Positions 2,060 through 24,836 of a DNA stretch of 25,653 nt are shown here, piece by piece. Source of the stretch: a virus. The first letter of the stretch is position 1; every line of letters begins with the position of its first letter. The notes below the pieces were generated by a model. It saw only the letters and a program-made list of their open reading frames with translations, was not told where the DNA came from and did no database searches. Both the position numbers and the translations under genes were made by a program. The DNA lies in the IMG/VR virus record IMGVR_UViG_3300037488_002525, positions 1-25,653 of that record; one strand, written 5' to 3'.

Positions 2060-2069
2060 GGAAAACTAT
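2060..2069 (+). promoter_or_regulatory. Late-promoter-like motif GGAAAACTAT
   Basis: Matches GGWAWMCTA exactly and lies 25 nt before the ATG at 2085. An AGGAAAA stretch follows at 2071 and may serve as the ribosome site. Confidence 0.5.
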
Positions 2070-2084
2070 AGGAAAAGTGTCGGC

Positions 2085-2588
2085 ATGGCCTCTCCTTTAC
2101 TCCCGTACGCAAATTCAGCAATTGTAATTGCATCAACGGGTGCTGTCAGCACAGTAGATGGTCGAATTACAGCTACGGCCGGCAATCGATACCTAATAAA
2201 AGCATTTCTGAAACGTGAGCAATCAACGGGTACCGAAACTGGTGGTACCAAGACCCCATTGCGCGGCCAATCGGGAAATGTCCTGCCAGGTGCTTCTGGT
2301 GAATACTTCCTATATAGAGGATATGCCTTGCAATACGCAACGGTCCCATCGACTTTTGTATTGGGTACCACTTCCGAAACTAATCTACAGTATACAAAAA
2401 TACAAGAACAATTTGCATGGATGCTACCGGGTCAAAATGGCCAACTACGATTTGGTGATGACAGGATCCTGAATGCACAAATCCAAAGATCATCTGGTGT
2501 ATTCGGCGGCGTCGGCATCGACGAAATCATTTACAATGAAATCGGCGGCGTCCAAATCCAAGTAACAGGGGCGGAGCTAACTAACTAA
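2085..2588 (+). CDS. Virion neck protein, possible head closure protein (167 aa)
   Basis: A 167-residue protein rich in beta-forming residues. An N-terminal VDGRITATAGNRYLIKAFLKR segment is followed by Gly/Thr loops and a C-terminal IGGVQIQVTGAEL strand. No family is recognised from sequence. Its TAA overlaps the ATG of the HK97-gp10-like gene (TAATG at 2586-2590), so the two are translationally coupled. That neighbour and the strand-rich composition make a head-closure or stopper role reasonable, as inference. AGGA lies about 12 nt before the start and a promoter-like GGAAAACTA lies 25 nt upstream. Confidence 0.65.
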   Translation: MASPLLPYANSAIVIASTGAVSTVDGRITATAGNRYLIKAFLKREQSTGTETGGTKTPLRGQSGNVLPGASGEYFLYRGYALQYATVPSTFVLGTTSETNLQYTKIQEQFAWMLPGQNGQLRFGDDRILNAQIQRSSGVFGGVGIDEIIYNEIGGVQIQVTGAELTN

Positions 2589-3094
2589 TGGCAAAACGAG
2601 GACTGGCCGGATCTCAATTTATCCCAAGAGAGTTGTTGAAGATTCCGGATATTCAATTTTCCGCCAACGTAAAACACGGATTCACAACAAGCCTGAAATT
2701 AACAGGTTACAAGCCAAGGGATTTTGGCAGGGACTTGAACAAGGCGGTAAAAAGTGCTAACCAGTTAATTGCCAACAAGCTTGCAACGGCACTTGACGAA
2801 GCAATGGCGTCAACAGCGTGGGGTGGAGGCAAAGACATAATAGACACGGGTGAATTAAAAAATTCTCTTGTTATAACAGCAACTTCTGGCGGTGTCACCG
2901 TAAAATATACGGCACCGTATGCAGCAATTATTCATTATGGTGGATATATCTTGCCATATGGTAATCCTAAGCTAAGTAAAGTATACATTCCTCCTAGGCC
3001 ATGGGTTAGTTCGGTGATGAAAGGAGGAGGACCGGTGCCTGCATTTGACTTCGAATCAGTGTATCGCGAAGCAATACAAGCAGTGTTTGGCTAA
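2588..3094 (+). CDS. HK97 gp10-like neck / tail completion protein (168 aa)
   Basis: A 168-residue protein with the hallmarks of the HK97-gp10 / virion morphogenesis group: a basic helical N-terminal half (DFGRDLNKAVKSANQLIANKL), then DTGELKNSL at about residue 85, a strand pair leading to TAPYAAIIHYGGY, and near the C-terminus IPPRPWV. In relatives this protein sits at the head-tail joint and is needed for tail completion or attachment. It starts in a TAATG overlap with the preceding gene and is followed by the tail chaperone gene. No truncation is seen; the length is typical. Confidence 0.85.
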   Translation: MAKRGLAGSQFIPRELLKIPDIQFSANVKHGFTTSLKLTGYKPRDFGRDLNKAVKSANQLIANKLATALDEAMASTAWGGGKDIIDTGELKNSLVITATSGGVTVKYTAPYAAIIHYGGYILPYGNPKLSKVYIPPRPWVSSVMKGGGPVPAFDFESVYREAIQAVFG

Positions 3095-3110
3095 GTGCTG
3101 TTATCTGGTG

Positions 3111-3120
3111 GGAATACTAG
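3111..3120 (+). promoter_or_regulatory. Late-promoter-like motif GGAATACTAG
   Basis: Exact match to GGWAWMCTAG, 28 nt before the ATG at 3139. The following CGCAC resembles the CACAC after the copy at 16109. Confidence 0.5.
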
Positions 3121-3138
3121 CGCACTTATTGCCCGAAC

Positions 3139-3711
3139 ATGGCCAAGCTTCCTTTTGTTGTAGAGCCTCGAATGAAGCCGATCATCGAAGAAATCGGCTC
3201 AGAGGAATCGGGTAAGATCCAAATTGAACGTCGTGGATATTTGACATCTGGCGAGAAAGCATTTTTCCAGCAAGCAAAACAAAGCGATAGCGGAACATCA
3301 GGTCTAATCAACTTGTCGCGTAAGATTTCACGCGCAACAGGTCTTGATATGACAAAATCATATGAAGCTGTAGTGCGTATCATCTCAGGCGCTGCGACAG
3401 AGGAGGTCGACGCAAAGATCGAGAATGATTTTGCAGAAGAATTAAGCGGTGTATTGCGTGACCTTACCAATGGTCAAACACATGATGAAATCTTGATGGC
3501 AATGTGCCTGATCAAGTATCGAATCAATTCAGAATTCAGCCTTGACGAGATGCTGGAATTGCATCCTGATATTGTCACGCAACTTGCTGAATTGTACCGC
3601 CAAGAAGAAGCAAAATCAACAGATAGGCTAATTGACGCAAGCAAAGACGAAGCAGAAGGCGTCGAGAAAGCAGCAAAAAAGCCGACATCGAAGGCAAAGG
3701 CGATGATTTAA
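3139..3711 (+). CDS. Tail assembly chaperone, short (G-like) form (190 aa)
   Basis: A 190-residue protein with an N-terminal segment KIQIERRGYLTSGEKAF, a helical core (LIKYRINSEFSLDEMLELHPDIV) and an acidic-to-basic C-terminal tail. Size, position upstream of tube and tape measure, and above all the overlapping -1 frame suit a lambda gpG-type chaperone, which keeps the tape measure soluble and recruits tail tube subunits. The 0 frame reads through AAAAAAG (3675-3681) and ends nine codons later at TAA 3709-3711. A -1 slip there gives a fusion of about 392 residues. No Shine-Dalgarno site is visible, and a promoter-like motif lies 28 nt upstream. The family is inferred mainly from context and the frameshift. 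Confidence 0.75.
   Translation: MAKLPFVVEPRMKPIIEEIGSEESGKIQIERRGYLTSGEKAFFQQAKQSDSGTSGLINLSRKISRATGLDMTKSYEAVVRIISGAATEEVDAKIENDFAEELSGVLRDLTNGQTHDEILMAMCLIKYRINSEFSLDEMLELHPDIVTQLAELYRQEEAKSTDRLIDASKDEAEGVEKAAKKPTSKAKAMI
3675..3681 (+). promoter_or_regulatory. -1 programmed frameshift slippery site AAAAAAG
   Basis: In the 0 frame the codons are GCA-AAA-AAG, so A-AAA-AAG has the X-XXY-YYZ form that lets both tRNAs re-pair one base back. The -1 frame is closed upstream (TGA 3633-3635) and open from 3636 to 4316. It has no ATG or GTG, and no TTG before 3789, so its coding content from 3681 on is unexplained without a shift. GAAGG (3655-3659) upstream may act as an internal stimulatory ribosome site, though it is farther away than usual. 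Confidence 0.8.
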
Positions 3712-4316
3712 TTCCCTTTGAGGAATATTACTGGCAGCTAAAAAAGGGATTTCCGGGTGACCCTGAATTCTCGAAGGATAGTTACTGGTTGCTGCCATAC
3801 GACTATGTAATATCGGCCGCCAGCAACCTCGCCAGACTGAGGGGGCGTGAGTTGCATGAATATGAAAGGCCTATTGCTGTATTGGCCGTACAGCAGGCTG
3901 AGATGAATCGCGACAAAAAGAAAAGGAAGAAGCCATTTGAACTGGATGAATTCTGTCTATATAACTTCGAGAACAAGAAAGATACCATCAGTCCAATATA
4001 TGGCGCCGCCGCTTTGGAGCTAATTAGGATAAAAGAATTCCCGGTCTGGGCGCTATTCATATACAAAGAATTGTCTGAAAGAGCGCAAGAATCAGCACCG
4101 CCAGATGTTTTATGTTATAAGTGCGATCAAGCTATCATACTCGCTCCCAGAATTGAAGAAAACATATGCAGGGGCATGTTAATAGCAACTGAGTTAGCCG
4201 GATCTCGCACCTTGACGATGAAATCACCATGCGGCAAGGAGCTAAGGGTAAGAATGCCACAAGTCAATTCAAAGATAATTGCAGAAGAAAACTGCTACCT
4301 GGACATCATAAATTAA
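3681..4316 (+). CDS. Tail assembly chaperone, T-like extension made by -1 frameshift (211 aa added)
   Basis: The extension reads in the -1 frame from GCC 3681 and adds about 211 residues to the first 181 of the upstream frame. Protein-like sequence is present well before the first TTG at 3789: PFEEYYWQLKKGFPGDPEF lies at about 3714-3770. Later parts include YDYVISAASNLARLRGREL, a basic stretch (RDKKKRKKPFELDEF) and a CYKC pair. An independent start at TTG 3789 would discard clearly conserved-looking residues. In lambda-type tails the rare GT fusion binds tail tube subunits through its T part. The stop abuts the stop of the leftward HNH gene with no gap. Confidence 0.75.
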   Translation, partial: ADIEGKGDDLIPFEEYYWQLKKGFPGDPEFSKDSYWLLPYDYVISAASNLARLRGRELHEYERPIAVLAVQQAEMNRDKKKRKKPFELDEFCLYNFENKKDTISPIYGAAALELIRIKEFPVWALFIYKELSERAQESAPPDVLCYKCDQAIILAPRIEENICRGMLIATELAGSRTLTMKSPCGKELRVRMPQVNSKIIAEENCYLDIIN

Positions 4317-4718
4317 CTAATCGGGCAGCCTACCATATTTCAACCAATAATCAATACGCTCTTCACGCCATTCTTCGTAAAAAACTTGCTGCCTAAACCA
4401 TTCACGCCATTCCGTAGAACCCTTTGATGCATTACATTCCCTGTCGGCGGGCACTATGTTGGCGCTAAGGTCTTCACCACCCCTGCATTTTGCTCTGACA
4501 TGATCCAAAGTAAGGCTGGAGTCATCAATTGGCGGCTTACCGCAGTAGGCGCATTGATTGTTCCATATATCCTTAATGGATTGTCGCCATTTCTTTTTTG
4601 CTTCTTTGTGTGTTAGAGCTTCCATGTTCCACAAATAATCACAGACGCGTTCGTACATCGGCAGAGAGTACTCCGAAGCCATCGAGATGTCGATAGATTT
4701 AAGTGGTTCCTTGAACAA
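4317..4718 (-). CDS. HNH homing-type endonuclease, leftward insertion (133 aa)
   Basis: A 133-residue HNH nuclease with C56-A-Y-C59, the catalytic D72-H73 in LTLDHV, a GG turn at 80-81, N87 and C95-N96...K99 in ECNASKG, which is a complete HNH/beta-beta-alpha-metal core. The N-terminal helix and Trp-rich C-terminal end may bind DNA. Free-standing HNH genes inside phage structural blocks are usually mobile and drive their own spread. It runs against all its neighbours, and its TAG directly abuts the chaperone stop. The TTG start at 4718 is weak; ATG at 4682 (residue 13) is an alternative. On the minus strand AGGAGG (4776-4771) precedes an 11-codon reading frame (ATG 4757) that ends TGA-TGA just before, and in frame with, the TTG. 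Confidence 0.85.
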   Translation of the reverse strand: MFKEPLKSIDISMASEYSLPMYERVCDYLWNMEALTHKEAKKKWRQSIKDIWNNQCAYCGKPPIDDSSLTLDHVRAKCRGGEDLSANIVPADRECNASKGSTEWREWFRQQVFYEEWREERIDYWLKYGRLPD

Positions 4719-4793
4719 TCATCACATAAGGGATGCAAGTAAGCTCAAGCATTGCATATCAGCGATTGTTCCTCCTAGGATTCCTGTAAAATA

Positions 4794-4803
4794 TCAAAAC
4801 TAG
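4794..4803 (+). promoter_or_regulatory. Weak copy of the late-promoter-like motif (TCAAAACTAG)
   Basis: Shares AAAACTAG with the GGWAWMCTAG family but lacks the leading GG. It lies 40 nt before the ATG at 4834. Confidence 0.25.
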
Positions 4804-4833
4804 GCAGTCTATAGCAGTTATTATTGTATCAAA

Positions 4834-5268
4834 ATGGCCCAATTGAAGGCCGATTCACCGGAAGTCATTTACGATACATTGACTGAAGATACAGAATTCG
4901 CAGCACTGGTTGGCAGTTACCTCTTCGTAGGTCAAACAACCCCCGTAGATTCCATCAGTATACTGTCCCCAAACGAAAAACTGCCTCAATTGTCAAGCCA
5001 AACAGGCCTAGAGGTCATAATTCATGACGTAGGGGAAGTGCAACGTGTTGATTACCTGACGGATCCAAGCGAAGCAGTCATAAGTTGGAAGGTATATTTG
5101 ATTGCGTGGCCGGGGGCTAATGGCGGAACAATTACAGCCGCCACCAAGCGAATGATTGAGATGTTTACCAATGCTGTGGGAATTGAAATAATCGCAACAC
5201 CGAACGAAATTGGCGCATTAGTCCAAAATGTTGTGCTAATTCCAAGCAATGCAGCAATCATGATTTGA
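4834..5268 (+). CDS. Probable tail terminator / tail completion protein (144 aa)
   Basis: A 144-residue alpha/beta protein: N-terminal helix (SPEVIYDTLTEDTEFAALVG), a central strand LEVIIHDVGEVQRVDYL, a strand pair around AVISWKVYLIAW, a helix (AATKRMIEMFTNAVG) and a C-terminal strand. This order resembles gpU/DUF3168-like tail terminators, and its place directly before the tail tube gene fits. The assignment is inferred from fold pattern and order. There is no Shine-Dalgarno site. The 16 nt TATCAAAATGGCCCAA spanning its start codon are identical at the start of the gene at 24900. Confidence 0.6.
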   Translation: MAQLKADSPEVIYDTLTEDTEFAALVGSYLFVGQTTPVDSISILSPNEKLPQLSSQTGLEVIIHDVGEVQRVDYLTDPSEAVISWKVYLIAWPGANGGTITAATKRMIEMFTNAVGIEIIATPNEIGALVQNVVLIPSNAAIMI

Positions 5269-5303
5269 AATGGCAGACTATTGACTATCTAAAAAATAAA
5301 CGT

Positions 5304-5315
5304 TTGGAAACCTAG
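5304..5315 (+). promoter_or_regulatory. Promoter-like motif TTGGAAACCTAG before the tail tube gene
   Basis: TTGGWAACCTA, here 68-70 nt before the ATG at 5374, recurs before the capsid gene (17147) and the decoration gene (24825). The region also shares CTAAAAAATAA upstream, and TACCTG, CTTTGTC and CGNCTTG downstream in the same order, with the capsid leader. Confidence 0.55.
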
Positions 5316-5320
5316 TTATG

Positions 5321-5336
5321 GCAGGTAGGTACCTGC
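5321..5336 (+). promoter_or_regulatory. Leader hairpin GCAGGT-AGGT-ACCTGC
   Basis: A 6-bp perfect stem with a 4-nt loop within the predicted 5' leader of the tail tube mRNA. It lacks an adjacent T-run of terminator length and could stabilise the transcript or affect translation. Confidence 0.35.
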
Positions 5337-5373
5337 TTTGTCCATCGTCTTGTCAAAACCTACCTAGCTAATT

Positions 5374-6003
5374 ATGGCAAACATTTCAACCGCTTTTGGC
5401 TACGACGTCTACATCATCCCGCTGTCTTCGGCTGATGTTGACACTGCTTTTACTGGCATTACTGCTGGCATCGGTGAGACCGGTGGTTTCGTAAACCTGG
5501 GGGAATCTAACGTCAACGTAGTTAGCGCCAGTGCCTCAGTTGCTTATTCGAGCGGCATCTTTACGGTTGCAGGCACCGCCTTTGGCATGGACGGCCTTGA
5601 TGATGCTGTCCGCCTTTATGGCCTGACTAACGCAGCACTCGAAACTGATACCAACTCCGAGGATGTCATCACCTATGACTCGGATACCAAGGGTTTCAAC
5701 CTGAGCCTGCCTACTTCTAAGTCCTGGAGCATCTCCCTTGGCGGTGTTGCTGACTTTAAGGATGCCGGTTACCAAATCCTGCGCTTGACTGAGCAGAATA
5801 CGGTGGCTGACGCCCTGCGCGTCAAATTCGCTCGTGTGGGCCCCACAGGCACCGATGAGTGCGTCTATGGCTATGGCACCCTCACGGGTTACACTGAGGC
5901 CATTGAAGCCGGTTCTATCGTCTCCTGGGAAGCGACCGTCCAAGGGTACGGGGCTTATCGCATTGACATCGACGCCAACGCCGCTCCCGCTCCAGGGCCC
6001 TGA
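5374..6003 (+). CDS. Major tail tube protein (209 aa)
   Basis: A 209-residue Gly/Thr/Ser-rich beta protein: N-terminal MANISTAFGYDVYIIPLSSADVD, central strands with FNLSLPTSKSWSISLGGVADF (a typical tube-protein strand pair), then RVKFARVG and a final strand EAGSIVSWEATVQGYG before an Ala/Pro tail. Length, composition and position two genes before the tape measure fit the tail tube (gpV-like) subunit, present in hundreds of copies. Codon use is much richer in C/G-ending codons (CTG, CGC, GGC, ACC) than in neighbours, as in the capsid and decoration genes, consistent with high expression. It has its own promoter-like motif and long leader, and a strong terminator follows. Confidence 0.85.
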   Translation: MANISTAFGYDVYIIPLSSADVDTAFTGITAGIGETGGFVNLGESNVNVVSASASVAYSSGIFTVAGTAFGMDGLDDAVRLYGLTNAALETDTNSEDVITYDSDTKGFNLSLPTSKSWSISLGGVADFKDAGYQILRLTEQNTVADALRVKFARVGPTGTDECVYGYGTLTGYTEAIEAGSIVSWEATVQGYGAYRIDIDANAAPAPGP

Positions 6004-6024
6004 CAATAGTCAGTTATTATACCG

Positions 6025-6048
6025 GGGCTCCTTCGGGGGCCCTTTTTT
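6025..6048 (+). terminator. Rho-independent terminator after the tail tube gene
   Basis: Stem GGGCTCC (6025-6031) with GGGGCCC (6036-6042), one T-G wobble, a stable TTCG tetraloop, then six T and TTATTGTCTTTT. It lies 21 nt after the stop. It separates the abundant tube transcript from the tape measure gene. Confidence 0.9.
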
Positions 6049-6092
6049 ATTGTCTTTTCTAGGCAACATAAAAGGAAGGCTGTGACCATTTG

Positions 6093-9000: not shown

Positions 9001-10511
9001 CACAATCGTTACTGAACCTGCAGGCGGGGTACCTCTCGGGACAGGAAAGGACCAGTCAGTCCGAGCTGGAATCGATAAATGAAAGACTAAGCAGAGAAAA
9101 AGAGATAAGGCAAGAGAAGCTTGAAGCTGCAGAAGAGGCTGGGGCAAGCGAGGGTGAAATCAAAAAACTCAAGGCAGAAGACCGGGCTGCCGACAAGGCT
9201 GGCCGCGCTGAAATAAAGGCAGTAGAAGCAGAACTTAAAAAGCTAGCCGAAAGCAAAAGGCAAATTGAAATACAGGGCATTCAGGCAAAGCTCAATGCAT
9301 TGCCAGCGCAGCAAGAGGCTGAGCGCGAATCGTTGCGAATTCAACAGAACTTAGCGCGACTTGAACTGGAACGATTAACCAACGCAGCCCGACGAGCAAA
9401 ACTGGAAGCCGTTGATGAATTGAATGACACAAGCAAGGATATTGACAAAGCTGGGGCCAGGGGTGACGATAAAGAAGTACAAAGACTAACTAAACTATTC
9501 AATCTGCAAATTGAGTACATCAACTTGCTAAAAGAAGAGGAAAAAAGTTTACAAAATTCAGCGAACCTGCAGGGACAGGCGAATAAATACATCCAGGAAG
9601 CACTTGCGAAAAAACAAGCTTCTGCCACTTTGGATTTACAGGCACAGTTGGCGTCACAAAATGCCTTGGTGGCACAACAGCAAACAGCGACTGCTGTGCA
9701 GGGTACCGCAACTGCAATGGCTAATGTTGCTACAAATGCTGCCGGATATGCACAGGCTGCGCAGACCGGCTCCGAATACGAGAGAAGTGGTGCTTTGGCC
9801 GCCAGAATAAAGGCTGACGCCGAGGCTGATGCCACCGCACAGGCCGAGGATGGTGCTAAAGCCAACAGGGATGGCGCTGCCGCCAACAAGGCTGCGACTA
9901 CCTCTACCAAGGGTGCTATCAAGCCTACTGATGCCACTGCTGACAATCTAACCCAGGGCGCTGATGCAGCCCAACGTCTCGCGAATTCGCTGACCGACTT
10001 GCCGAACAAGATAGATATAGCAGTTAATATCGTAGGTGGTCCACTGGGTCTATGGACTGGTGGTCCAACTGTCGGCGGACAGACCTATCGAATCAACGAA
10101 TTAGGGAAAGAAGGATTCCTGTCTTCGACGGGCGACCTAAGCCCGATCAATAAGCCCCGCAATGCCCTCTGGAAGGCCCCTGGAAAGGGCATGGTGATAC
10201 CTGCGCACATTATGTCCACTCTTGATGTTCCAACGGGTCGTGTGTCCACTGGAGTGCGCCCTGCCGTGACCGGTTCTGGTAGTAATGGCTTGACCAAAAT
10301 CGCTCGTGCCATCCAGGCGGCACTATCTCAAAACAGTAAGCCAGATTCCGGATTGCAGGAAATGGCAGCAGTACAGGCACACCAAGCGATACAGATCGGA
10401 AAACTAAGCCGCGCAGTGACCAAGCTAGCCGATAAGGACTGGAACGTAAATGTTGGAGTCCGAAACACTGGCAGCACTGCTTACCTTGATGCATTGAATC
10501 GCAGGATGTAA
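6093..10511 (+). CDS. Tape measure protein (1472 aa)
   Basis: The longest gene. Residues 200-355 form the tape-measure N-terminal region (LRLTFEGIGKGS-like start, many short helices, ELTQQISEADPAFR). Hydrophobic segments lie near residues 440-470, 490-515, 530-560 and 655-690, as expected for the part that contacts or crosses the host membrane. A long charged coiled coil runs at about 985-1200, then an Ala-rich stretch and a C-terminal domain. I see no clear lytic or peptidase motif. At about 1.5 angstrom per residue the tail would be near 220 nm. ATG 6093 is preceded by GGAAGG (6074-6079), 13 nt away; TTG 6090 is an alternative. It ends in a TAATG overlap with the next gene. Confidence 0.92.
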   Translation: MADINLGAELKVTAVGAQTAWDAFIAGGQAAGKATNASLGGTVKKDIIARVIVDDQGLNKIVLLEKERLSVVDKLQAALKKANDLERDSVTSLRQQVNQAKQLRDSMAKYGASVDGIFTKVGKVNGAWETQNARVKDLQRQLDIAGASNIWQRLSAEYNLGGLASAGRQISELVNVFQSVSIIVGQVIGSVNQLFDSLQKLQSIRLTFEGIGKGSDVDKVFSESSRIALGLGVSLNTVRDGFQQLSPVILATGGNINDVSAITESLSSRFVTFGLSADKSRRVMNGVVQAFSKGKLMAEELTQQISEADPAFRTDLATAIGVTVKELGDMVKAGEVTNELLLDAIPRMSKSAGLFGKLGDSALDAAQGFREGGVTVEQFRNQIATIEQLSLENLVNPDTGPLQPLLASLLELRAVVTDVGVAFANSEVFRTFLTLLGDIASQISSVVQVSAALISAIASITQPIFGAINAINTLGGRLENFGIISSLVAGIITAKLVFALGALAVSGVVGTAIGGLKLLTAAVNLLNSGAIINLIKTIGLSIAAFIGLGGATAQAAAKEGLATIVTKARTVASAALTGQLLKQAAAEKLLGGIAPGGTAGGPKITRGAGAPTGVAPVYGPAPPPPSAQIAQAKAAAEATDKINKLKTAWTGLRTAVAAAASGIGAAAIATGAIAVTAALAAGVIVYSSWNGLTGEARTESARFAEGLKKIDESAKKAKDAIDKSGSSAKVFETELSNLKIRPDDFISKNFGPDLWRQVRYDELIKGAKTAFGDVDKRIDASAKAVQNYSEVNDKTGKAAEKVAIDINTAEKSNQLLLDQTKKKRQDLLTEVKRGGKGATVENKRQITEYNKIVGALEQNKQKIIETKKAAEGKGVVLIEADVKPAIDTLEQFDVRVKSLKALLILETDPAKQEKLQGEINAIEAQLRFLQSDRIEFKINAEFKINQRALQDGLGLSQAIIGSLQASVEYTQSLLNLQAGYLSGQERTSQSELESINERLSREKEIRQEKLEAAEEAGASEGEIKKLKAEDRAADKAGRAEIKAVEAELKKLAESKRQIEIQGIQAKLNALPAQQEAERESLRIQQNLARLELERLTNAARRAKLEAVDELNDTSKDIDKAGARGDDKEVQRLTKLFNLQIEYINLLKEEEKSLQNSANLQGQANKYIQEALAKKQASATLDLQAQLASQNALVAQQQTATAVQGTATAMANVATNAAGYAQAAQTGSEYERSGALAARIKADAEADATAQAEDGAKANRDGAAANKAATTSTKGAIKPTDATADNLTQGADAAQRLANSLTDLPNKIDIAVNIVGGPLGLWTGGPTVGGQTYRINELGKEGFLSSTGDLSPINKPRNALWKAPGKGMVIPAHIMSTLDVPTGRVSTGVRPAVTGSGSNGLTKIARAIQAALSQNSKPDSGLQEMAAVQAHQAIQIGKLSRAVTKLADKDWNVNVGVRNTGSTAYLDALNRRM

Positions 10512-13945: not shown

Positions 13946-13955
13946 GGTAAACTAG
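13946..13955 (+). promoter_or_regulatory. Late-promoter-like motif GGTAAACTAG
   Basis: Identical to the 10-mer at 16109-16118 and at nearly the same distance from the start (29 versus 28 nt). A preceding T makes TGGTAAACT, which resembles an extended -10 box. Confidence 0.55.
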
Positions 13956-16012: not shown

Positions 16013-16038
16013 ATACGAATCCTATCTTCATCCCCGCT

Positions 16039-16108: not shown

Positions 16109-16118
16109 GGTAAACTAG
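16109..16118 (+). promoter_or_regulatory. Late-promoter-like motif GGTAAACTAG
   Basis: Same 10-mer as at 13946, 28 nt before the GTG at 16137. TTGCTT at 16090-16095 is a possible -35 with short (15-nt) spacing. Confidence 0.5.
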
Positions 16119-16136
16119 CACACGGCATACACTTCA

Positions 16137-16253
16137 GTGTCAAAAGAATCAAATCTATCTCAATATGCCAAGATACTACAAGCAGTAGCACGTAATGGCC
16201 TATTACGTCGTGAAAAAGATGAAAAGTTAGCCAAAAAAATCCTCAACAAGTAA
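16137..16253 (+). CDS. Very small charged helical protein upstream of the scaffold (38 aa)
   Basis: GTG 16137 to TAA 16251-16253 encodes 38 residues: MSKESNLSQYAKILQAVARN then GLLRREKDEKLAKKILNK. The whole product is a charged amphipathic helix pattern, and the frame is closed by TAG at 16116 just upstream. No ribosome site is seen, but the motif GGTAAACTAG lies at the standard 28-nt distance, so the transcript would have a very short leader. It could be a small capsid-assembly accessory or a regulator; no family is recognised. Position between tail and head modules suggests co-expression with the scaffold. Confidence rests on the promoter spacing and composition. Confidence 0.5.
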   Translation: MSKESNLSQYAKILQAVARNGLLRREKDEKLAKKILNK

Positions 16254-16303
16254 TCCCGGCGTTAACCATACTTATCTAATAGGCATACTACCACGCACTC
16301 ATA

Positions 16304-16316
16304 GGGCGTGACGCCC
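16304..16316 (+). promoter_or_regulatory. Hairpin GGGCG-TGA-CGCCC just before the scaffold start
   Basis: A 5-bp GC stem ends 8 nt before the ATG at 16325, where a ribosome site would be expected. No Shine-Dalgarno sequence is present. It may control scaffold translation. Confidence 0.3.
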
Positions 16317-16324
16317 GAATTTCA

Positions 16325-17062: not shown

Positions 17063-17083
17063 ACAAGCTGAAGTCAATCGAGG

Positions 17084-17105
17084 GGGCCGATTGCGGCCCT
17101 TTTTT
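17084..17105 (+). terminator. Rho-independent terminator after the scaffold gene
   Basis: Stem GGGCCG (17084-17089) and CGGCCC (17094-17099), loop ATTG, then six T. It separates the scaffold from the capsid unit, so the capsid must use its own promoter. Confidence 0.9.
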
Positions 17106-17146
17106 AATGCTAAAAAATAACAAATTACCAACTCTATTGAAAATGC

Positions 17147-17158
17147 TTGGTAACCTAA
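17147..17158 (+). promoter_or_regulatory. Promoter-like motif TTGGTAACCTAA before the capsid gene
   Basis: TTGGWAACCTA lies right after the scaffold terminator and about 135 nt before the capsid ATG. The long leader shares the ordered blocks TACCTG (17169), CTTTGTC (17180) and CGNCTTG (17191) with the tail tube leader at 5330-5352, as well as CTAAAAAATAA upstream (17110-17120). Confidence 0.55.
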
Positions 17159-17282
17159 TAATTGAAGATACCTGAATACCTTTGTCGAGACGACTTGGTA
17201 AGAGGGTGTCGAGCTAATGCCCAGTGTGACACAGGTTTTAGCAAATCACCCATCTTTTCCCGTCGTTTATTAGGTACTGATC

Positions 17283-18176
17283 ATGTCGCTTACATTGGCC
17301 GAGGCCAAAAAGCACTCTACTAATCCCCAGGAACTGGCGATTATCACTGAGCTTGCTGCCGGCCCCCTGCTCCAAAGCCTGCCTTTCCGTGAAGTTCAGG
17401 GCAATGGCCTGTTCTGGAAGCGTGAAGAGTCCCTCGGAGACGTGGGCTTCCGTGCTTTCAACGATGGCTATACTGAGAGCTACGCTACCGTCAAGCAACA
17501 CAGCGAAGCACTGAAGCTCTTTGGTGGTGACATCAAGGTTGACCGCGCTATCGTTGATCTGGAGGGCCCCGAGGCTCGTGCATACCAGATCCAAGCTAAG
17601 ACTCGCGCAATGCGTCTGGCTTTTGAAGCACTGTTCATCAATGGTGACTCCAATAGCAACTCCGCTGAGTTCGACGGTCTGGCCGCTCGCCTGCCTTCTG
17701 GTTCCAGCCAGTACATCGCCAATGGCGGTGGTGCCCTTAACACCGGCAAGCTTGACGAAGCCATCGATGCAGTGGACGCCCAAGGCGGTTCCAAGTATCT
17801 GGTTATGTCGAAGTCTGCTCGCCGTCACCTGAGCAAGATCGCTCGCGCCAATGGTCAAATTGACATTGAGCGTAACGATTTCGGTTACCAGCAACTGTTC
17901 TACAGCGGTATTCCTGTACTGGAAATCGACCGCGACCATCAGAACGTTGCTATCCTGGACAGCACCCCCAGCGACCAGTCGATCTATGTTGTTGCCTTCG
18001 GTAATGACCTGCTGACCGGCCTGCAGAACGGTGGCCCTCAAGTGCGTGACCTGGGTGAAGCAACTGATTCGCCTACCCTGGTGACTCGCGTTGAGTGGTA
18101 TTGCTCGATCGGTCTGCTGAATGGCCGCGCCGCCGCTCGCCTGGCTGCCGTCGACGCAACCGCCGCTGTTTCCTGA
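17283..18176 (+). CDS. Major capsid protein, HK97 fold (297 aa)
   Basis: A 297-residue protein with the features of a short HK97-type major capsid protein. An N-terminal helix (LTLAEAKKHSTNPQELAIITELA) is followed by the E-loop region (REVQGNGLFWKREESLGDVGFRAFNDGY), a spine-helix segment (LKLFGGDIKVDRAIVDLEGP... QIQAKTRAMRLAFEALFINGD), the SGSSQYIANGGG loop, an A-domain core (KYLVMSKSARRHLSKIAR), GIPVLEIDRD, and a final strand VTRVEWYCSIGLLNGRAAARL. With a separate scaffold upstream there is no fused delta domain. Codons are strongly biased to C/G endings, unlike most neighbours. It sits between two terminators with its own promoter-like motif. ATTAGG about 9 nt before the ATG may be the ribosome site. 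Confidence 0.9.
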   Translation: MSLTLAEAKKHSTNPQELAIITELAAGPLLQSLPFREVQGNGLFWKREESLGDVGFRAFNDGYTESYATVKQHSEALKLFGGDIKVDRAIVDLEGPEARAYQIQAKTRAMRLAFEALFINGDSNSNSAEFDGLAARLPSGSSQYIANGGGALNTGKLDEAIDAVDAQGGSKYLVMSKSARRHLSKIARANGQIDIERNDFGYQQLFYSGIPVLEIDRDHQNVAILDSTPSDQSIYVVAFGNDLLTGLQNGGPQVRDLGEATDSPTLVTRVEWYCSIGLLNGRAAARLAAVDATAAVS

Positions 18177-18201
18177 TACATCCTGTCTTAAACAGCAACC
18201 T

Positions 18202-18227
18202 GGGAGCCAATTGGCTCCCTTTTTTTT
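18202..18227 (+). terminator. Strong rho-independent terminator after the capsid gene
   Basis: Perfect stem GGGAGCC (18202-18208) and GGCTCCC (18213-18219), AATT loop, and eight T. It lies 25 nt after the capsid stop. Confidence 0.95.
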
Positions 18228-18240
18228 GTGTCTTGCCTTC

Positions 18241-18834
18241 ATGAGTGGCGCTTGGTATACTGGTAATGTCTATAGCGATCGAGCAGTGCGGCCTCCGATA
18301 GAATTGCCTCGTATCAGCGTTCTTGGTGAATATTTTGAGCTTGATCCAAATATCCCGCATGGCCTAAGATGGAAAAAGAAGGCAGCGCGTAACACGATTG
18401 TCGGAGGCCCTGCGGGAAGACGTCACTCGAACGGATACTGGGAAGTTCGATTTCAAACTGTGCTGTATAAAAGTTCGAGAATAATATACAAAATCTATAA
18501 CAATGGCGAAGACCCTGGGCTATACGAGATAGACCATCTAGACAGAGACAAAAACAACAACAATGGCTCCAACCTAGTTCTGGCAACTAGAGCTGATCAA
18601 AATAGAAACAAACCAGTAAAAGCTATCTCTGGCTTTAGGCATGTTTCGATCGATCTTAGGGCCGAAAGAAGTCGTGCTCCGTGGATTGCCAATGTCTCTC
18701 TCAGGATAAAAGGCAAAAGAACGAATAACTATCTGGGTTATTTTTTAAATCCGTACGAAGCTGCAATTGCGGCGATCGTATACAAACGTGAAAATGATAT
18801 CAGGTATGAGTACGCTCCGGGAGGTACGGTGTAG
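18241..18834 (+). CDS. HNH endonuclease with AP2-like C-terminal part (197 aa)
   Basis: A 197-residue protein. An N-terminal segment (YFELDPNIPHGLRWKKKAARN...GRRHSNGYWEVRF) is followed by the HNH core with E96-I-D98-H99 in LYEIDHLDRDKNNN and N111 in GSNLVLATRADQNRNK, and by a C-terminal AP2-like DNA-binding region (NVSLRIKGKRTNNYLGYFLNPYEAAIAAI). This architecture is typical of mobile phage HNH homing enzymes that cut a related phage at the same locus. It sits in the gap between the capsid terminator and the fibre cassette. ATG 18241 is chosen because the terminator lies just upstream; the frame extends further up only through non-coding sequence. Confidence 0.88.
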   Translation: MSGAWYTGNVYSDRAVRPPIELPRISVLGEYFELDPNIPHGLRWKKKAARNTIVGGPAGRRHSNGYWEVRFQTVLYKSSRIIYKIYNNGEDPGLYEIDHLDRDKNNNNGSNLVLATRADQNRNKPVKAISGFRHVSIDLRAERSRAPWIANVSLRIKGKRTNNYLGYFLNPYEAAIAAIVYKRENDIRYEYAPGGTV

Positions 18835-18854
18835 CAATTCGCTCTGCCCCCTTA

Positions 18855-18864
18855 GGCAAACTAT
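18855..18864 (+). promoter_or_regulatory. Relaxed late-promoter-like motif GGCAAACTAT
   Basis: One mismatch to GGWAWMCTA, 29 nt before GTG 18884. The distance equals that of the best copies and supports that start. Confidence 0.4.
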
Positions 18865-18883
18865 CCTAGTGACGCTATTAGCA

Positions 18884-19216
18884 GTGGTTCCCGGAAGGTA
18901 CGATATTACCATATACCAGCGGGCCACATTCAGGAGGCAAATTACGCTGCCGCTTGATCTGACGGGCCACCAAGTATTTGCCCAGATTTGGGATGCAAAA
19001 AGACGTAATAAGATTGCAGATTTTGAAATTGATATAACAGATGAGGCGGGTGGTGAATTTGACATAATCTTAGATTGGGAGGAGACAACACCATTGAAAA
19101 AGGCTGCCTCATGGGACCTGATGGTTGTTTATGCGGACCAAACTAGGGATTACTATATTGAGGGATTGGTAACGGTCGACACTGGCCTGACTGCTCCAGA
19201 GGATGCAGATGCCTGA
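18884..19216 (+). CDS. Small fibre-base protein, BppU-like N-terminal domain (110 aa)
   Basis: From GTG 18884 this gives 110 residues: [21 protein letters not shown] then [35 protein letters not shown] and [25 protein letters not shown]. The strand pattern and the 'induces-change-in' layout resemble small Ig-like or BppU N-terminal domains that anchor receptor-binding fibres. GTG 18869 is an alternative start. I chose 18884 from the 29-nt spacing to GGCAAACTAT. The TGA (19214-19216) overlaps the start of the collagen-like fibre (ATGCCTGA), so the two are coupled, which supports a fibre-anchor role. Confidence 0.65.
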
Positions 19217-21677
19217 TCCTGTTATCGAAATAATAAATAATATAGCGACTGTTACTGTCAACGAAGGTGACAATGCAATAATCAATATTGGACTAGAGCC
19301 AATTGTTGAGACTATAGAGCTAGGGGTAGTCGGCCCCCAGGGACCAGTCGGCCCCTCTGGTCCGATAGGTCCGTCTGGCGCAATTGGGGTAACTGGTGCG
19401 GAAGGAGCGTCAGGTGCTACAGGCATCCAGGGCGCAACCGGTATTCAAGGTCCCACGGGTGTAACTGGGATTCAGGGCCCAACTGGAGCACAGGGTATCA
19501 CTGGGATAACTGGCGCAACAGGCGTCATTGGTATTAGCGGCGCAACGGGTCCGGTCGGGCCTACAGGGGTTGTTGGCCCAACTGGAGTATCAGGCGTTAC
19601 CGGTGCAACTGGAGTTCAGGGTGTTACTGGAGTTTTTGGTGCAACTGGAGCCACTGGTGTTTCCGGATTAAGTGGTGCCACTGGCGCAACAGGCGTAATA
19701 GGCATTAGCGGTGCCACTGGCGTTGTTGGTGTTTCAGGTGCTACAGGCATTGGGATTACCGGAGCTACAGGCATCAGTATCACTGGCGCAACAGGCGTAA
19801 TAGGCATTAGCGGTGCCACTGGTCCTATTGGTCTGACCGGCGTCTCTGGCGCCACTGGCCCAATCGGCATTAGCGGCGCCACTGGCCCAATCGGCATTAG
19901 CGGAGCCACTGGTCCAGTAGGCACCACTGGCCCCACTGGCGTCATCGGGATTAGCGGCGCCACGGGCCCCGTAGGGCAAACCGGCGTCTCTGGCGCCACA
20001 GGTGTTATTGGCACCACCGGCGCTACCGGTCCCGTGGGCCAAACAGGCGTTTCTGGTGCCACAGGAGCTATCGGCGTTTCTGGTGCCACTGGCGTAGTTG
20101 GTGTCAGCGGTGCCACTGGCGCGACTGGCGTGGCCGGCCCTAGCGGCCCCACCGGACCACAAGGATACTCGTCCAGTCTTTTTCGTTACCGAGCGAGAAC
20201 AACAATCACCACTGGCTACCCAGGCGATGGCCACATTATCTGGAACAACGCAACGCAAACTAGCGCAACCGTAATCAGCATCAGCCACTTAACAGATGAA
20301 AATATTGATATTGATATTTTCCTAGCTCAACTTATACCAACTGAAAATATCACGATCCAAGATCAAAACGCAAGTAGTAACTACCAAATTTGGCGCATCA
20401 CTGGTGCGCTGACAAACATCAATCCTGATACGTCAACCAGTTATTGGACCTTGCCTGTCACGCTTGTTTCGTCAAACGGAACAGGCACGACTAATTTTGC
20501 CAACAACCACGCAATTTTCGCTGCACTAGTGAATGGTGCAGAAGGAGCCACCGGCCCCCAAGGCGCTACCGGCGTTGTAGGCGTATCCGGTGCCACCGGA
20601 ATCCAAGGCATCACGGGCCCGACAGGCCCCCAAGGCGCTACGGGCGTCACTGGTCCGACAGGCGTTATCGGCGTCTCAGGCGCCACCGGGGTTCAAGGCG
20701 AGACTGGCATCCAAGGCCCCACTGGCGCCCTCGGTCAGACCGGCCCCAGTGGCGTAGTCGGCGTTACAGGACTTACTGGGAGTACGGGTGCAACAGGTGT
20801 TGTTGGGGTTTCTGGGGCTACAGGTGCAGTTGGCGTCTCAGGCGCTACTGGAATCCAAGGTCCCACTGGTGCTACGGGCGTAGATGGCCCTACTGGCGCT
20901 AGTGGTGCAACCGGTGTCATCGGCGTTTCCGGGGCTACTGGCGTCATCGGTGTCTCAGGTGCTACCGGCGTTGTCGGCGTCTCAGGGGCTACTGGTGCAA
21001 CTGGTGTAGCTGGCCTTGGTGGTCCCACTGGTGCCACGGGGATCATCGGCGTATCTGGTGCGACTGGAGTTGTTGGCGTATCCGGTGCTACTGGTCCACA
21101 AGGAAGCACTGGGCCTCAAGGTATTACCGGACCAACTGGTGTTACTGGGCTTGTCGGTGTCAGTGGTGCTACTGGTCTGCAAGGCCCCACTGGAGTGAGT
21201 GGAGCAACTGGTTTACAAGGATCAACTGGTGTTACTGGTGAGCAGGGAGCTACCGGCGTTGTTGGTGTTACAGGAGCCACCGGAGTTGACGGCCCTACCG
21301 GTGTCACAGGCCCTGAAGGAGCAACCGGTCCTATAGGAGTCAGTGGAGCAACAGGTATTGGTATTACAGGAGTAACAGGTGCAACTGGAGTCATTGGGGT
21401 ATCTGGTGCAACTGGTGTAGGTATTACAGGCGCCACTGGTGCGGTTGGAGCTACAGGGGCAATCGGTGTTAGCGGAGCAACTGGTGTAGGTATTACTGGT
21501 GCCACAGGCGTAGGTATTACTGGTGCCACAGGAGTTATCGGCGTATCCGGTGCCACGGGAGTTATTGGTGTATCCGGCGCCACGGGAGTACAGGGGGCTA
21601 CCGGAATTCAAGGCGCCACTGGTCCAATAACTTATGGTAAACTACTTGCTGTCACGTATGGTGCAGCAATGCCCTGA
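19209..21677 (+). CDS. Collagen-like tail fibre with an internal knob domain (about 822 aa)
   Basis: The protein has an N-terminal strand-rich anchor of about 40 residues ([21 protein letters not shown]), a first collagen-like Gly-X-Y region (19330-20163) and a globular insert of about 120 residues. The insert ([61 protein letters not shown]) resembles the knob seen at fibre ends in other phages. A second, longer collagen-like region (20541-21630) and a short tail ([13 protein letters not shown]) complete it. Trimeric triple helices are expected, making a long flexible receptor-contact fibre. The ATG at 19209 has AGAGG 6 nt upstream; 19203 is possible. Triplet register breaks at GIGIT and GVGIT motifs. 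Confidence 0.88.
19330..20163 (+). repeat. First collagen-like repeat array
   Basis: Degenerate Gly-X-Y codons with recurring 9-residue blocks such as GVIGISGAT. One nearly exact 27-bp tandem lies at 19861-19887 and 19888-19914. Codons differ between units, so recombination would be local. Confidence 0.85.
20541..21630 (+). repeat. Second collagen-like repeat array
   Basis: A longer Gly-X-Y region with many GVIGVSGAT and GVVGVSGAT blocks. Near 21480-21530 a 24-bp unit encoding GVGITGAT is repeated in tandem and breaks the triplet register (G-V-G). Confidence 0.85.
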
Positions 21678-21695
21678 CGTTCGCTTTTATCTCTC

Positions 21696-22148
21696 ATGGC
21701 CGCTAACACTTCCCCCATCTGGACGCTGACGCCAAACGTCAGTCATGCAGACATCTTGACTACAGCCACAAACGTCAATACCACTGCTCCCGGCACTATC
21801 GGGACCAACTGTTTCGTGGCATTTACATCTGGCGTAGACGGCTCTTACATACAAAAGTTTCGCTTTTCGTTCGTCTCAACTACAAGTGTTATCAACTCTG
21901 TTGCTACGACATTGCAGGTGTACTCCTCCACCGTTAACACTGGTGCCACAACTACAGCCAACACCGACTTGCTTGCAATAGTTCAGGCCGCAGCACAGAC
22001 TGTTTCGGCAGTTACGACTGCGCCCTACCAAATCGAGATTCCATTTAACTTTGCAATCCCAGCTAACAGATACTTACTTGTGGCACAGTCCGTTGCACAA
22101 ACCACCAACGCTAACTGGCAAGGATTGGCGATTGGAGGCAACTACTAA
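21696..22148 (+). CDS. Probable virion structural protein of the fibre cassette (150 aa)
   Basis: A 150-residue Ser/Thr/Ala/Asn-rich protein with almost no charged residues: SPIWTLTPNVSHADILTTATN, IQKFRFSFVSTTSVINSVATTLQVY, PYQIEIPFNFAIPANRYLLVAQSV, WQGLAIGGNY. The pattern is a beta-sandwich-like virion protein. I do not recognise a named family. Its TAA overlaps the ATG of the glycine-rich gene (TAATG at 22146-22150), so the two are made together. A GGTAAACTA match to the promoter motif lies at 21636-21644, inside the end of the fibre gene, 60 nt upstream. Confidence 0.7.
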   Translation: MAANTSPIWTLTPNVSHADILTTATNVNTTAPGTIGTNCFVAFTSGVDGSYIQKFRFSFVSTTSVINSVATTLQVYSSTVNTGATTTANTDLLAIVQAAAQTVSAVTTAPYQIEIPFNFAIPANRYLLVAQSVAQTTNANWQGLAIGGNY

Positions 22149-23089
22149 TGCTTAACGTATTTGACATTCCAAAGCCGCAAACTGGTTTTGTCAACGTTTT
22201 CACTGGCTTTGCAAACGCCAACACTCAATGGGTGCCTTGGGAAAAACCCGCTGGCATCACCATGGTCCGCATTGTGTGCATCGGCGGTGGGGCTGGTGGC
22301 GGTGGCGGTTTCCCCAGTGCAACTGCAACTGCGCGAGGGGGTGGTGGTGGCGGCGGAAGTAGCGGCATCTCAACAGTAGAGATTCCTGCTGCTTTATTGC
22401 CTGACTTGTTGTACGTCTCAGCGGGCATTGGCGGTAACGGTGGCGCGTCTTCAACCACTGTTGGCACTCTTGGGATCAGCGGAATCGGCTCTTACGTTTC
22501 AATCGCTCCAGCTACTGCCGCTATCTACACCGTCTGCTTTGCTAACCCTGGAGCAGCAGGCACTACAGCGGCTTCGGCAACAGTTGTAGGAAATGCTGGT
22601 AACGCTGGTGCGGTTGCAACAACTGCCGCCTCTTTGCTTAGTGGATTGGGAACTAGCTTCTTCCTTGCAGGCCAAGGCGGCGGTGCTGGCGGCGCAGTTG
22701 CCAACGGTGCTGGCGGTGCAATCACCTACCCCACAACTGGATTGCTTCTATCTGGTGGAGCAGGTGGCGGCGGCGGCTCAACAGGTGCAGGCGGTAACAT
22801 CACAGCCCCTGCCTCGCAGACAGCCGTACTAAGCCTTTTTGCAACCCTAGTCGGTGGTGCCGCTGGTGCGACTGCGGGCAACGGCTCCCCTGGAGTGCGT
22901 CGTCCAACTCCGCTACTTAACACTGGCGGCTCAGGCGGCGGCTGTAACAGCGGCAACGCTCTTGGTGGATATGGCGGTGACGGTGCCTTTGGATCTGGCG
23001 GCGGCGGCGGCGGTGCAGGCGGCACTACAGGTGGTAGTGGTGCTGGCGGCAACGGCGGCCCCGGATTGGTGATGATCTATTCGTGGTAA
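22148..23089 (+). CDS. Glycine-rich putative tail-tip adhesin (313 aa)
   Basis: A 313-residue protein. An N-terminal strand region (WVPWEKPAGITMVRIVCIGGGAGGGGG) leads into repeated glycine-rich stretches alternating with Ala/Thr/Val strands. The C-terminus is GGGGGGAGG... GGNGGPGLVMIYSW. Gly-rich phage proteins of this kind can form polyglycine-type layers and serve as receptor-binding adhesins, like the Gly-rich adhesins of T4-related phages, though no homology is claimed. Variable loops between Gly runs would be the contact surface. It follows the collagen fibre and its coupled partner, so a host-contact role fits. Confidence 0.72.
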   Translation: MLNVFDIPKPQTGFVNVFTGFANANTQWVPWEKPAGITMVRIVCIGGGAGGGGGFPSATATARGGGGGGGSSGISTVEIPAALLPDLLYVSAGIGGNGGASSTTVGTLGISGIGSYVSIAPATAAIYTVCFANPGAAGTTAASATVVGNAGNAGAVATTAASLLSGLGTSFFLAGQGGGAGGAVANGAGGAITYPTTGLLLSGGAGGGGGSTGAGGNITAPASQTAVLSLFATLVGGAAGATAGNGSPGVRRPTPLLNTGGSGGGCNSGNALGGYGGDGAFGSGGGGGGAGGTTGGSGAGGNGGPGLVMIYSW

Positions 23090-23105
23090 GCAAGGGAATT
23101 ACCCC

Positions 23106-23119
23106 TATAGTGTTATAGT
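23106..23119 (+). promoter_or_regulatory. Tandem TATAGT boxes before the glycosyltransferase-methyltransferase gene
   Basis: TATAGT at 23106-23111 and again at 23114-23119, 12-25 nt before ATG 23131, resemble -10 boxes. This site is not a match to GGWAWMCTAG, so the gene may be under different control. No convincing -35 is seen. Confidence 0.3.
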
Positions 23120-23130
23120 GCTTGCCAAAT

Positions 23131-24741
23131 ATGATGAAACCCCGTTTGCATGTTGTTGGCATCTTTCACACCCAGCACAGCCAGGCATATAGTCACTGTG
23201 CTTTTACTGGTAAGGCTCTGCGTTTTCCAAAGATGATGCAGGGCCAAGGTTATGAGGTGATCGAATATAGCAATGCTGGCAGTGAAAGCAGCGCCAATGA
23301 GCACGTCACGATACTGGACGCGAGCGAGTTCATCGCATTGTTCAACCGCAGCGACACCGACTTTCACGGCAACGATGCCACAGTAGGCAGCGACGCCCAT
23401 GAACTCTTTGAGCAGCGCCTAATTCCAGCGTTGCGAGAACGCCTACAGCCCCAGGACATCATCTGTCATCCGTTCGGCCACGCGCACCAGCAGTTGATGA
23501 CTGAGTTCCCCAACCACCAGCACGTCGAAACCGGCATCGGCTACCCCACGTTGATGCCCAATAGCTTCCGCATCTTTGAGTCCTACGCGTGGATGCACTA
23601 CCACCAGGGCAAAGAAGGCCGCAACGGCAGGAACTACGAATGGGTCGTCCCGAACTATTACGACCTAGATGACTGGGAACCCAGCTACGAGCCCGGCCAA
23701 TATCTTGCCTTCCTGGGACGCATCACCCCCTTAAAGGGCATCGACACCATTAAGGCTATCGCTGACCACAGCCCCTGGCCCATCGTGCTGCACGGCCAAG
23801 GCGACCCAACGCCATGGGCTCATCCAAATATTGAATACCGAGGTCCCATTAGCGGCAAAGCCCGCAGTGAGTTCCTGCGCAATGCTCGCGCCCTGTTGGC
23901 GCCCACGGTGTTCACTGAACCTTTCTGTGGCATGGCCGCCGAAGCCATGCTATGCGGCACCCCCGTAGTAGCAGTGGATTATGGCGCTATGACCGAAACC
24001 GTCATCGAGGGCGTGATGGGTTATCGGTGCCACACCTTGCAGGACTGGGTTGATGCCATCAATGCTGTGGGCGACCTAGACAGGCGCGTGATTGCCGATA
24101 TCGCCCGCGCCAAGTGGTCACTGGAAGCTTGCGGCAAGCGCTATGACAAGATCTTTTCTCAACTGAATGATTTATACCGCGCAGGCTGGTACGAACTGCG
24201 CGATATCAGCTTCAACCAAATTGAGTGCGAAGAGGGCCCTTTTGCTAAACGTCTGGCAGGCTGGATTTCGGCCGAGTTAGCACCAGAGACCGTCCTAGAT
24301 ATCGGCTGTGGCCCTGGTACCTATGTGAGAGCAATGCGAGCAGCAGGCGTTAATGCCACTGGTATCGACACCGACGACCGGGTCCTGGGACAAGATCATC
24401 TAGAGCAGCGTAGTCTTTTTGACCTAGAACGCCAAGCCGAATTAGTCATTTGCCTAGAGGTAGCTGAGCACATTGACCCTGCACAGACGGAAGAAATTGC
24501 TAAGTGTGTAACCGATGCAATACTGCCCGGTGGTCACTTGATATGGTCTGCCGCTCAACCAGGACAGGGCGGTGTCGGACACATCAATTGCAGACCAAGA
24601 CAAGACTGGGAAGAGCTATTTGCCGCACAAGGGTTGTCTAGGTGCATCGAAACAGAGAACAAGCTAAGGGAAGACATGAGGGCTGGATATCATATGGGTT
24701 GGTTTTACAATAATGCGATTGTCTTGGCTAAGATGGACTAG
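23131..24741 (+). CDS. Glycosyltransferase-methyltransferase fusion (536 aa)
   Basis: Two domains in one chain. The N-terminal about 355 residues are a GT-B glycosyltransferase (GT4-like): an acceptor half (PRLHVVGIFHTQHSQAYSH...) and a nucleotide-sugar half with YLAFLGRITPLKGIDTIKAI, VLHGQGDP and the EX7E motif in EPFCGMAAEAMLCGTPVVAVDYG. Residues about 370-536 are a class I SAM methyltransferase with motif I VLDIGCGPGTYVRAMRAAGV, the acidic GIDTDD and LEVAEHIDPAQ followed by LPGGHLIWSA. It would add a sugar and methylate it or a neighbouring group. Target unknown: virion fibres next door or host surface glycans. ATG 23131 (or 23134) is preferred over TTG 23122; no ribosome site. Confidence 0.85.
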   Translation: MMKPRLHVVGIFHTQHSQAYSHCAFTGKALRFPKMMQGQGYEVIEYSNAGSESSANEHVTILDASEFIALFNRSDTDFHGNDATVGSDAHELFEQRLIPALRERLQPQDIICHPFGHAHQQLMTEFPNHQHVETGIGYPTLMPNSFRIFESYAWMHYHQGKEGRNGRNYEWVVPNYYDLDDWEPSYEPGQYLAFLGRITPLKGIDTIKAIADHSPWPIVLHGQGDPTPWAHPNIEYRGPISGKARSEFLRNARALLAPTVFTEPFCGMAAEAMLCGTPVVAVDYGAMTETVIEGVMGYRCHTLQDWVDAINAVGDLDRRVIADIARAKWSLEACGKRYDKIFSQLNDLYRAGWYELRDISFNQIECEEGPFAKRLAGWISAELAPETVLDIGCGPGTYVRAMRAAGVNATGIDTDDRVLGQDHLEQRSLFDLERQAELVICLEVAEHIDPAQTEEIAKCVTDAILPGGHLIWSAAQPGQGGVGHINCRPRQDWEELFAAQGLSRCIETENKLREDMRAGYHMGWFYNNAIVLAKMD

Positions 24742-24749
24742 GAAAACTA
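24741..24749 (+). promoter_or_regulatory. Late-promoter-like motif GGAAAACTA (distal copy)
   Basis: Exact GGWAWMCTA match overlapping the stop of the glycosyltransferase-methyltransferase gene, 159 nt before ATG 24900. It is the first of two such elements in this leader. Confidence 0.4.
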
Positions 24750-24824
24750 ACTAGACAGACACAAAAGCGTGATATTATCGTCTTCCGACATTTCAGATAT
24801 TCCTTCTACGATTATTTAGCAACA

Positions 24825-24836
24825 TTGGAAACCTAC
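24825..24836 (+). promoter_or_regulatory. Promoter-like motif TTGGAAACCTAC before the decoration gene
   Basis: The same TTGGWAACCTA element that precedes the tail tube and capsid genes, 73-75 nt before ATG 24900. Confidence 0.5.

Follow-up and report, generated by a model that had tools for sequence, protein, structure and literature searches.

The IMG/VR virus record IMGVR_UViG_3300037488_002525, the whole of which (25,653 bases) is referred to here as the window, is part of the genome of an S-CBS2-like cyanosiphovirus; a short motif, GGWAWMCTA, recurs in it. The window contains neck, tail tube, tape measure, scaffold, and capsid genes (Table 1), and its major capsid protein (MCP) is 67-70% identical to those of S-CRES1-3 and 51% identical to that of Prochlorococcus phage P-SS2. 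The window yielded no recognisable phage replication or sigma genes, and both were therefore studied in its relatives. All of the evidence is computational, some start codons in the window were chosen by us from lists of open reading frames (ORFs), and counts across relatives are not independent because of shared ancestry.

Recurrence and placement of the motif

GGWAWMCTA matches the window exactly at 10 forward sites and 1 reverse site, whereas 100 dinucleotide-preserving shuffles averaged 1.17 matches on both strands together and never exceeded 3. A first-pass annotation had proposed the motif as a phage late promoter and expected roughly one match by chance, which was about right, and its exact positions were reproduced, including the two copies in coding regions (10398 and 21636). 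Two of its relaxed sites, 1598 and 18855, score well, whereas that at 1074 is weak (7.4 bits). The spacing of 25-34 nucleotides (nt) that it gave between motif and start codon holds for 1598, 2060, 3111, 13946, and 16109, and for 18855 provided that its start at 18884 is right, but not for 5306, 17149, 24741, or 24827. A reverse match that it overlooked, at 4784-4776, falls between divergent genes, upstream of the HNH gene; several near-matches also escaped it, most notably GGCATACTAC ahead of the scaffold gene.

By using de novo expectation maximization on the regions upstream of annotated genes, GGnAWMCTA or a close variant was recovered in 4/4 separate runs (S-CBS2, S-CRES3, S-CRES2, and the window, each alone). 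The element shared by S-CBS2, S-CRES2, and S-CRES3 is GG-H-A-W-M-C-T-A, and the position weight matrix (PWM) from these three reference phages, built without the window, reads G.90, G.78, H, A.91, W, M, C.89, T.93, and A.62/G.26. When applied to held-out IMG/VR loci that surround capsid genes, this PWM found 296 forward and 43 reverse sites, compared with 89 for a column-permuted PWM, and 76% of the forward sites lay outside ORFs of at least 100 codons, where only 12.8% of the sequence lies. P-SS2 carries a diverged form, GGAAnSCTAG. In the control cyanosiphoviruses S-CBS1, S-CBS3, S-CBS4, and KBS-S-2A, the motif was not enriched. In the literature searched, which did not reach the S-CBS2 and S-CRES genome papers, no description of the motif was found.

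The placement of the sites follows gene organization. The motif is rare before genes that start less than 10 nt behind their neighbour, and about half of the other genes have it. Genes of the virion and packaging modules are preceded by the motif far more often (75/108) than genes elsewhere (16/86; Fisher p = 1e-12). A genome-wide scan, which the first-pass annotation had suggested as a check, thus showed matches enriched before genes and supports the promoter reading. Of 54 sites in gaps of at least 60 nt, 29 are spaced 25-34 nt from the start codon, compared with 6.2 expected. The exceptions are themselves conserved, at 123-152 nt for the capsid gene, 59-68 nt for the tail-tube gene, and 43-50 nt for the scaffold gene. 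Since the MCP site falls at 123-152 nt in 45/47 IMG/VR relatives, its long distance is a conserved leader rather than noise.

Promoter architecture and the capsid leader

Among 110 aligned sites, no column between -50 and -12 from the motif start exceeds 0.1 bits; just downstream of this range, T at -11 reaches 0.16 bits. A -35 element 15-19 bp upstream, as in a canonical sigma-70 promoter, was accordingly absent from the alignment. A T is favoured two bases upstream of GG, and a purine excess appears at motif offsets +13 and +14, which is where transcription would be expected to start if CT is taken to end the -10 hexamer. Across relatives, the region upstream of MCP is unalignable before the motif and conserved after it, from near the predicted start, as expected if transcripts begin just downstream of the motif.

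The repeated motif before virion genes is almost certainly a late promoter, as judged from sequence and placement. The label "late" rests on gene function, and on sequence and gene function together the element would be of the T4 type, that is, a -10-only late promoter. Motif columns 3-8 (H-A-W-M-C-T) would form the -10 hexamer, in which the flipped-out A would occupy -11 and T -7. GG at -14/-13 would act as an extended -10; a -35 element is lacking. Such a promoter would drive late (virion and packaging) transcription units from a start 13-14 nt downstream of the first base of the motif, so that leaders are predicted to be short, at about 14-20 nt, except that of the capsid gene, which would measure about 120 nt.

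The MCP leader appears to be structured. Its alignment supports 18 pairs in four helices, with 93.8% of cells paired, and contains 72 double-change cells; shuffles gave 24.2 and slid controls 7-24, and the slid control favours the structure because the structure was chosen from the same alignment. Rfam assigned the leader to no family and gave nothing but a sub-threshold match elsewhere. An invariant GGGU can pair with either an upstream ACCC or a conserved downstream ACC(C), and because it has these alternative partners two folds compete, which suggests a switch.

Several further arrangements of sites were observed. Ahead of some start codons, a terminator-like hairpin follows the motif so closely that its 5' arm adjoins or overlaps the motif (window 25267-25304; S-CRES3 60675, 61093, and 62951; S-CBS2 33353 and 34672); transcripts starting at such motifs would lack the 5' arm and would escape a terminator that stops read-through. 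On the minus strand of S-CRES3 (L083), early-type CCATACTA sites lie at 31377, 31992, and 32310, and in each case a partly palindromic GAGTnnAAATACTC-like repeat, perhaps a repressor operator, is located upstream near -35.

Table 1. Predicted features of the window. Bit scores are from the PWM trained on the reference phages, with the window excluded; d is the number of nucleotides to the start codon; TSS, transcription start site.
Feature	Position	Strand	Match or evidence	d	Remarks
GGCATACTGA, candidate -10 element for ORF 1632	1598..1607	+	11.3 bits	34	
GGAAAACTAT, predicted -10 element for ORF 2085	2060..2069	+	exact, 11.9 bits	25	predicted TSS 2073-2074
GGAATACTAG, predicted -10 element for ORF 3139	3111..3120	+	exact, 13.4 bits	28	predicted TSS 3124-3125
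GGAATCCTAG, candidate promoter of reverse-strand HNH gene 4718-4317	4775..4784	-	12.4 bits		sites also at d=82-87 in S-CBS2, S-CRES2, S-CRES3
GGCAGTCTAT, weak candidate promoter for ORF 4834	4803..4812	+	8.7 bits	31	homologue in relatives likewise has a site at d=31
GGAAACCTAG, predicted -10 element for tail-tube gene 5374	5306..5315	+	exact	68	d=59 in S-CBS2 and S-CRES3
GGAAAACTAA within tape-measure gene, upstream of ORF 10511	10398..10407	+	exact	113	activity uncertain
GGTAAACTAG, predicted -10 element for ORF 13975	13946..13955	+	exact, 13.3 bits	29	
GGTAAACTAG, predicted -10 element for small ORF 16137 (GTG start)	16109..16118	+	exact, 13.3 bits	28	
GGCATACTAC, predicted -10 element for scaffold gene 16325	16282..16291	+	11.8 bits	43	same decamer precedes the scaffold-position gene in S-CBS2, S-CRES2, S-CRES3 (d=45-50)
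GGTAACCTAA, predicted -10 element of MCP gene 17283	17149..17158	+	exact	134	predicted TSS 17162-17163
Conserved structured 5' leader of MCP mRNA, about 120 nt	17162..17282	+	alignment of relatives, covariation		
MCP gene	17283..18176	+	PHROG major head protein, 3.5e-73		71% identity to S-CBS2 MCP
GGCAAACTAT, candidate promoter, gene start at or near 18884 (GTG)	18855..18864	+	11.7 bits	29 (to 18884)	
GGTAAACTAC at 3' end of collagen-like gene, before ORF 21696	21636..21645	+	exact	60	activity uncertain
GGAAAACTAA, candidate promoter overlapping stop codon of ORF 23122-24741	24741..24750	+	exact	159	d is to ORF 24900
GGAAACCTAC, candidate -10 element for ORF 24900	24827..24836	+	exact	73	
GGAATAATAG, candidate promoter for ORF 25305	25267..25276	+	10.3 bits	38	overlaps 5' arm of terminator-like hairpin

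Two other genes of the window were also noted. The collagen-like gene at 19203-21677 (824 codons) consists of short Gly-rich repeats, and its opposite strand also has long open frames; a glycosyltransferase fused to a methyltransferase domain (23122-24741) lies between virion genes.

A phage sigma factor as the candidate reader

S-CBS2, S-CRES, and P-SS2 encode two sigma factors each, one of which, a group-3 sigma, is located just after terL. Of 21 capsid-relative contigs, 15 contain the group-3 sigma and 14 the second, group-2-like sigma; all of the contigs without the group-3 sigma are fragments of 28-46 kb. The control phages carry only a group-2 sigma, or no relative of the group-3 sigma. 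The best NCBIfam match of the group-3 sigma is SigF, over regions 2 and 3 (7e-20 to 2e-23, below the curated cut-off). Pfam Sigma70_r2 matches at 9e-10 in the PSS2 homologue and weakly, below the cut-off, in S-CBS2 and S-CRES, and the fold of sigma region 2 is recognisable in an AlphaFold2 (AF2) model (Z 12.5, 1.8 A over 77 residues). Region 4 was found neither by Pfam in 25 homologues nor by profile search against PDB, and a fold search with the C-terminal 97 residues gave no PDB match above Z 2.3. Across 11 genomes, the region 4 family PF04545 matched only the group-2-like sigma (in 5/11 genomes, which provides an internal positive control). The group-3 sigma may still have a degenerate region 4 domain.

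Similar elements are read by cyanobacterial sigma factors. In Nostoc punctiforme, SigJ reads the J-Box GGGaAtacT, and the gvpA start was mapped 10 bp from the hexamer centre (PMC6495340). The phage motif likewise has GG directly followed by aAtacT, a weak or absent -35, and a presumed group-3 sigma, and the best phage site, GGAATACTAG, includes GGAATACT. On the other hand, the third G of the GGG trio is not conserved in the phages (G in 8% of the 110 sites), the phage motif has an extra A after T, and the presumed reader is phage-encoded with an undetectable region 4. Synechocystis SigF promoters have TAGGC at -32 and need GGTAA at -12 (PMC2758279); GGTAA fits the start of the phage GGTAAACTA, in line with the NCBIfam match, whereas the phage sites carry no information at -32. 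The P-SS2 genome paper predicted that the group-3 sigma serves a particular regulon, which was left unidentified there, and searched for promoters with a sigma-70 tool (PMC2784084). Because of its co-occurrence with the motif, the controls, the undetected region 4, and the SigJ/SigF parallels, the group-3 sigma is the most likely reader, which would act with the host RNA polymerase.

Additional observations concern the sigma gene itself. It is usually preceded, 28-32 nt upstream, by GGTAGACTGG or a variant (contigs L126, L129, L133, L152, L160, and others), a possible autoregulatory or intermediate promoter. The annotated sigma of S-CBS2, gp77 (L082 12832-13564), is shorter than most relatives, and its conserved C-terminus continues in another frame, owing to a sequencing error or to a genuine frameshift. 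Contig L124 (DGOV01000074.1), binned as a Proteobacteria metagenome-assembled genome (UBA4457), encodes a group-3 sigma (71% identical) and is probably a mis-binned cyanophage contig. For a tree, a genome scan for cellular SigJ/SigF relatives gave one contig only, which was binned as Proteobacteria and may be viral, and plasmids gave only Streptomyces matches.

The C-terminus of the group-3 sigma resembles a clamp-binding tag. Among 45 distinct homologues of at least 210 residues, 40 end in Q-x-x-[LV]-F (QGSLF, QPSLF, and others), two of them with one to five further residues, so that by sequence most carry a clamp-binding-like motif where a T4-type late sigma has its clamp-binding motif. Q, L, and F are conserved at 87-89%, compared with 27-71% for adjoining columns and 84% for an arginine two before Q. 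The sigma C-terminus is the sole Q-x-[SDN]-L-F match in the annotated S-CRES2 and S-CRES3 proteomes, and in S-CBS2 the ending was found downstream of the annotated sigma, in another frame. Comparison of homologues showed that P-SS2 and its closest relatives lack this ending. The bacterial beta-clamp-binding consensus is QLxLF and is often C-terminal (PMC4549789), whereas the second position of the phage tag is usually G or P, not L.

In T4, region 2 of gp55 is followed by a variable segment and then, at the C-terminus, by an epitope for the clamp, gp45 (PMC2988020, PMC7892883). The system described here resembles T4 late transcription (gp55, gp33, gp45) in its predicted -10-only promoters, a sigma region 2 protein, and a clamp-binding-like tail after a variable segment. 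It differs in that the phage sigma is of the group-3 SigF type and its tail is of the bacterial QLxLF type, which points to the host clamp, and in that neither a clamp gene nor a gp33-like coactivator was found, the latter sought only by scanning for another protein with the Q-x-[SDN]-L-F pattern. DNA polymerase III beta (PF00712) and alpha subunits and polymerase A were not found in the 11 genomes, with controls working, and the T4-type clamp PF02916 gave no match in a search without a positive control. Since no phage clamp or polymerase was found in these genomes, the host clamp would be the partner. The chances seem about even that the sigma docks via its C-terminal Q-x-x-L-F on the host beta clamp (DnaN), coupling late transcription to replication.

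Alternative readings and implications

It appears likely that the motif is the -10-only late promoter of S-CBS2-like cyanosiphoviruses and is read by the phage group-3 sigma. The first-pass annotation had likewise proposed a -10-only element read by a phage-altered polymerase or sigma factor, a view now strengthened by enrichment at gene starts, the strand and virion-module biases, the lack of a -35 signal, and the lack of enrichment in control phages. Several observations weigh against this interpretation. The controls are more distant phages, so their lack of enrichment is tied to ancestry, and the group-2-like sigma co-occurs with the group-3 sigma. Sites before replication-region genes are often TATACTGG, nearer to a canonical -10, and some motif copies sit within genes. 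The tight 25-34 nt spacing would also suit a translation-level element. Terminators beside the motif were no commoner than in other gaps (22/73 vs 22/74), and with no overall enrichment, terminator adjacency was dropped as promoter evidence.

A promoter read by another sigma factor, either of the host (SigA, or host SigF/SigJ) or the phage group-2-like sigma, is rather unlikely. Cyanobacterial SigJ and SigF do read similar GG-type elements, and the group-2-like sigma is common among the relatives' contigs; however, the motif is unenriched in S-CBS1, S-CBS3, and KBS-S-2A, whose only phage sigma is of group 2, and Synechococcus is the host of motif-bearing and control phages alike. Moreover, the region 4 seen in the group-2-like sigma would predict a -35 element, and none is seen. 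It is quite improbable that the motif acts at the RNA level in the 5' untranslated region, as a translation enhancer, a ribosome-binding aid, or a processing site. The spacing to the start codon is indeed tight even in long gaps, but such a role is difficult to reconcile with the conserved exceptions at 43-152 nt, the strand and virion-module biases, the match to a -10 hexamer with GG, and MCP conservation that begins downstream of the motif. A short conserved element that lacks a -35 would be in keeping with a phage single-subunit RNA polymerase, but a promoter of this kind is very improbable: PF00940 was unmatched in the 11 genomes (a search without a positive control), the "RNA polymerase-like" proteins S-CBS2 gp34 and PSS2 gp085 match only DUF6171, below the cut-off, and the motif spans just 9-10 bp.

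If the motif is read by the group-3 sigma, it gives the likely regulon of this factor and a promoter logo that is directly testable in S-CBS2 or S-CRES. Should the clamp tag also prove functional, a group-3 sigma without -35 recognition would activate -10-only late promoters solely when the phage DNA is being replicated, and replication-coupled late transcription would have evolved independently in phages outside the T4 family. This would represent a second route to such coupling, via the host clamp, and the logic of T4 would become testable in a smaller system.

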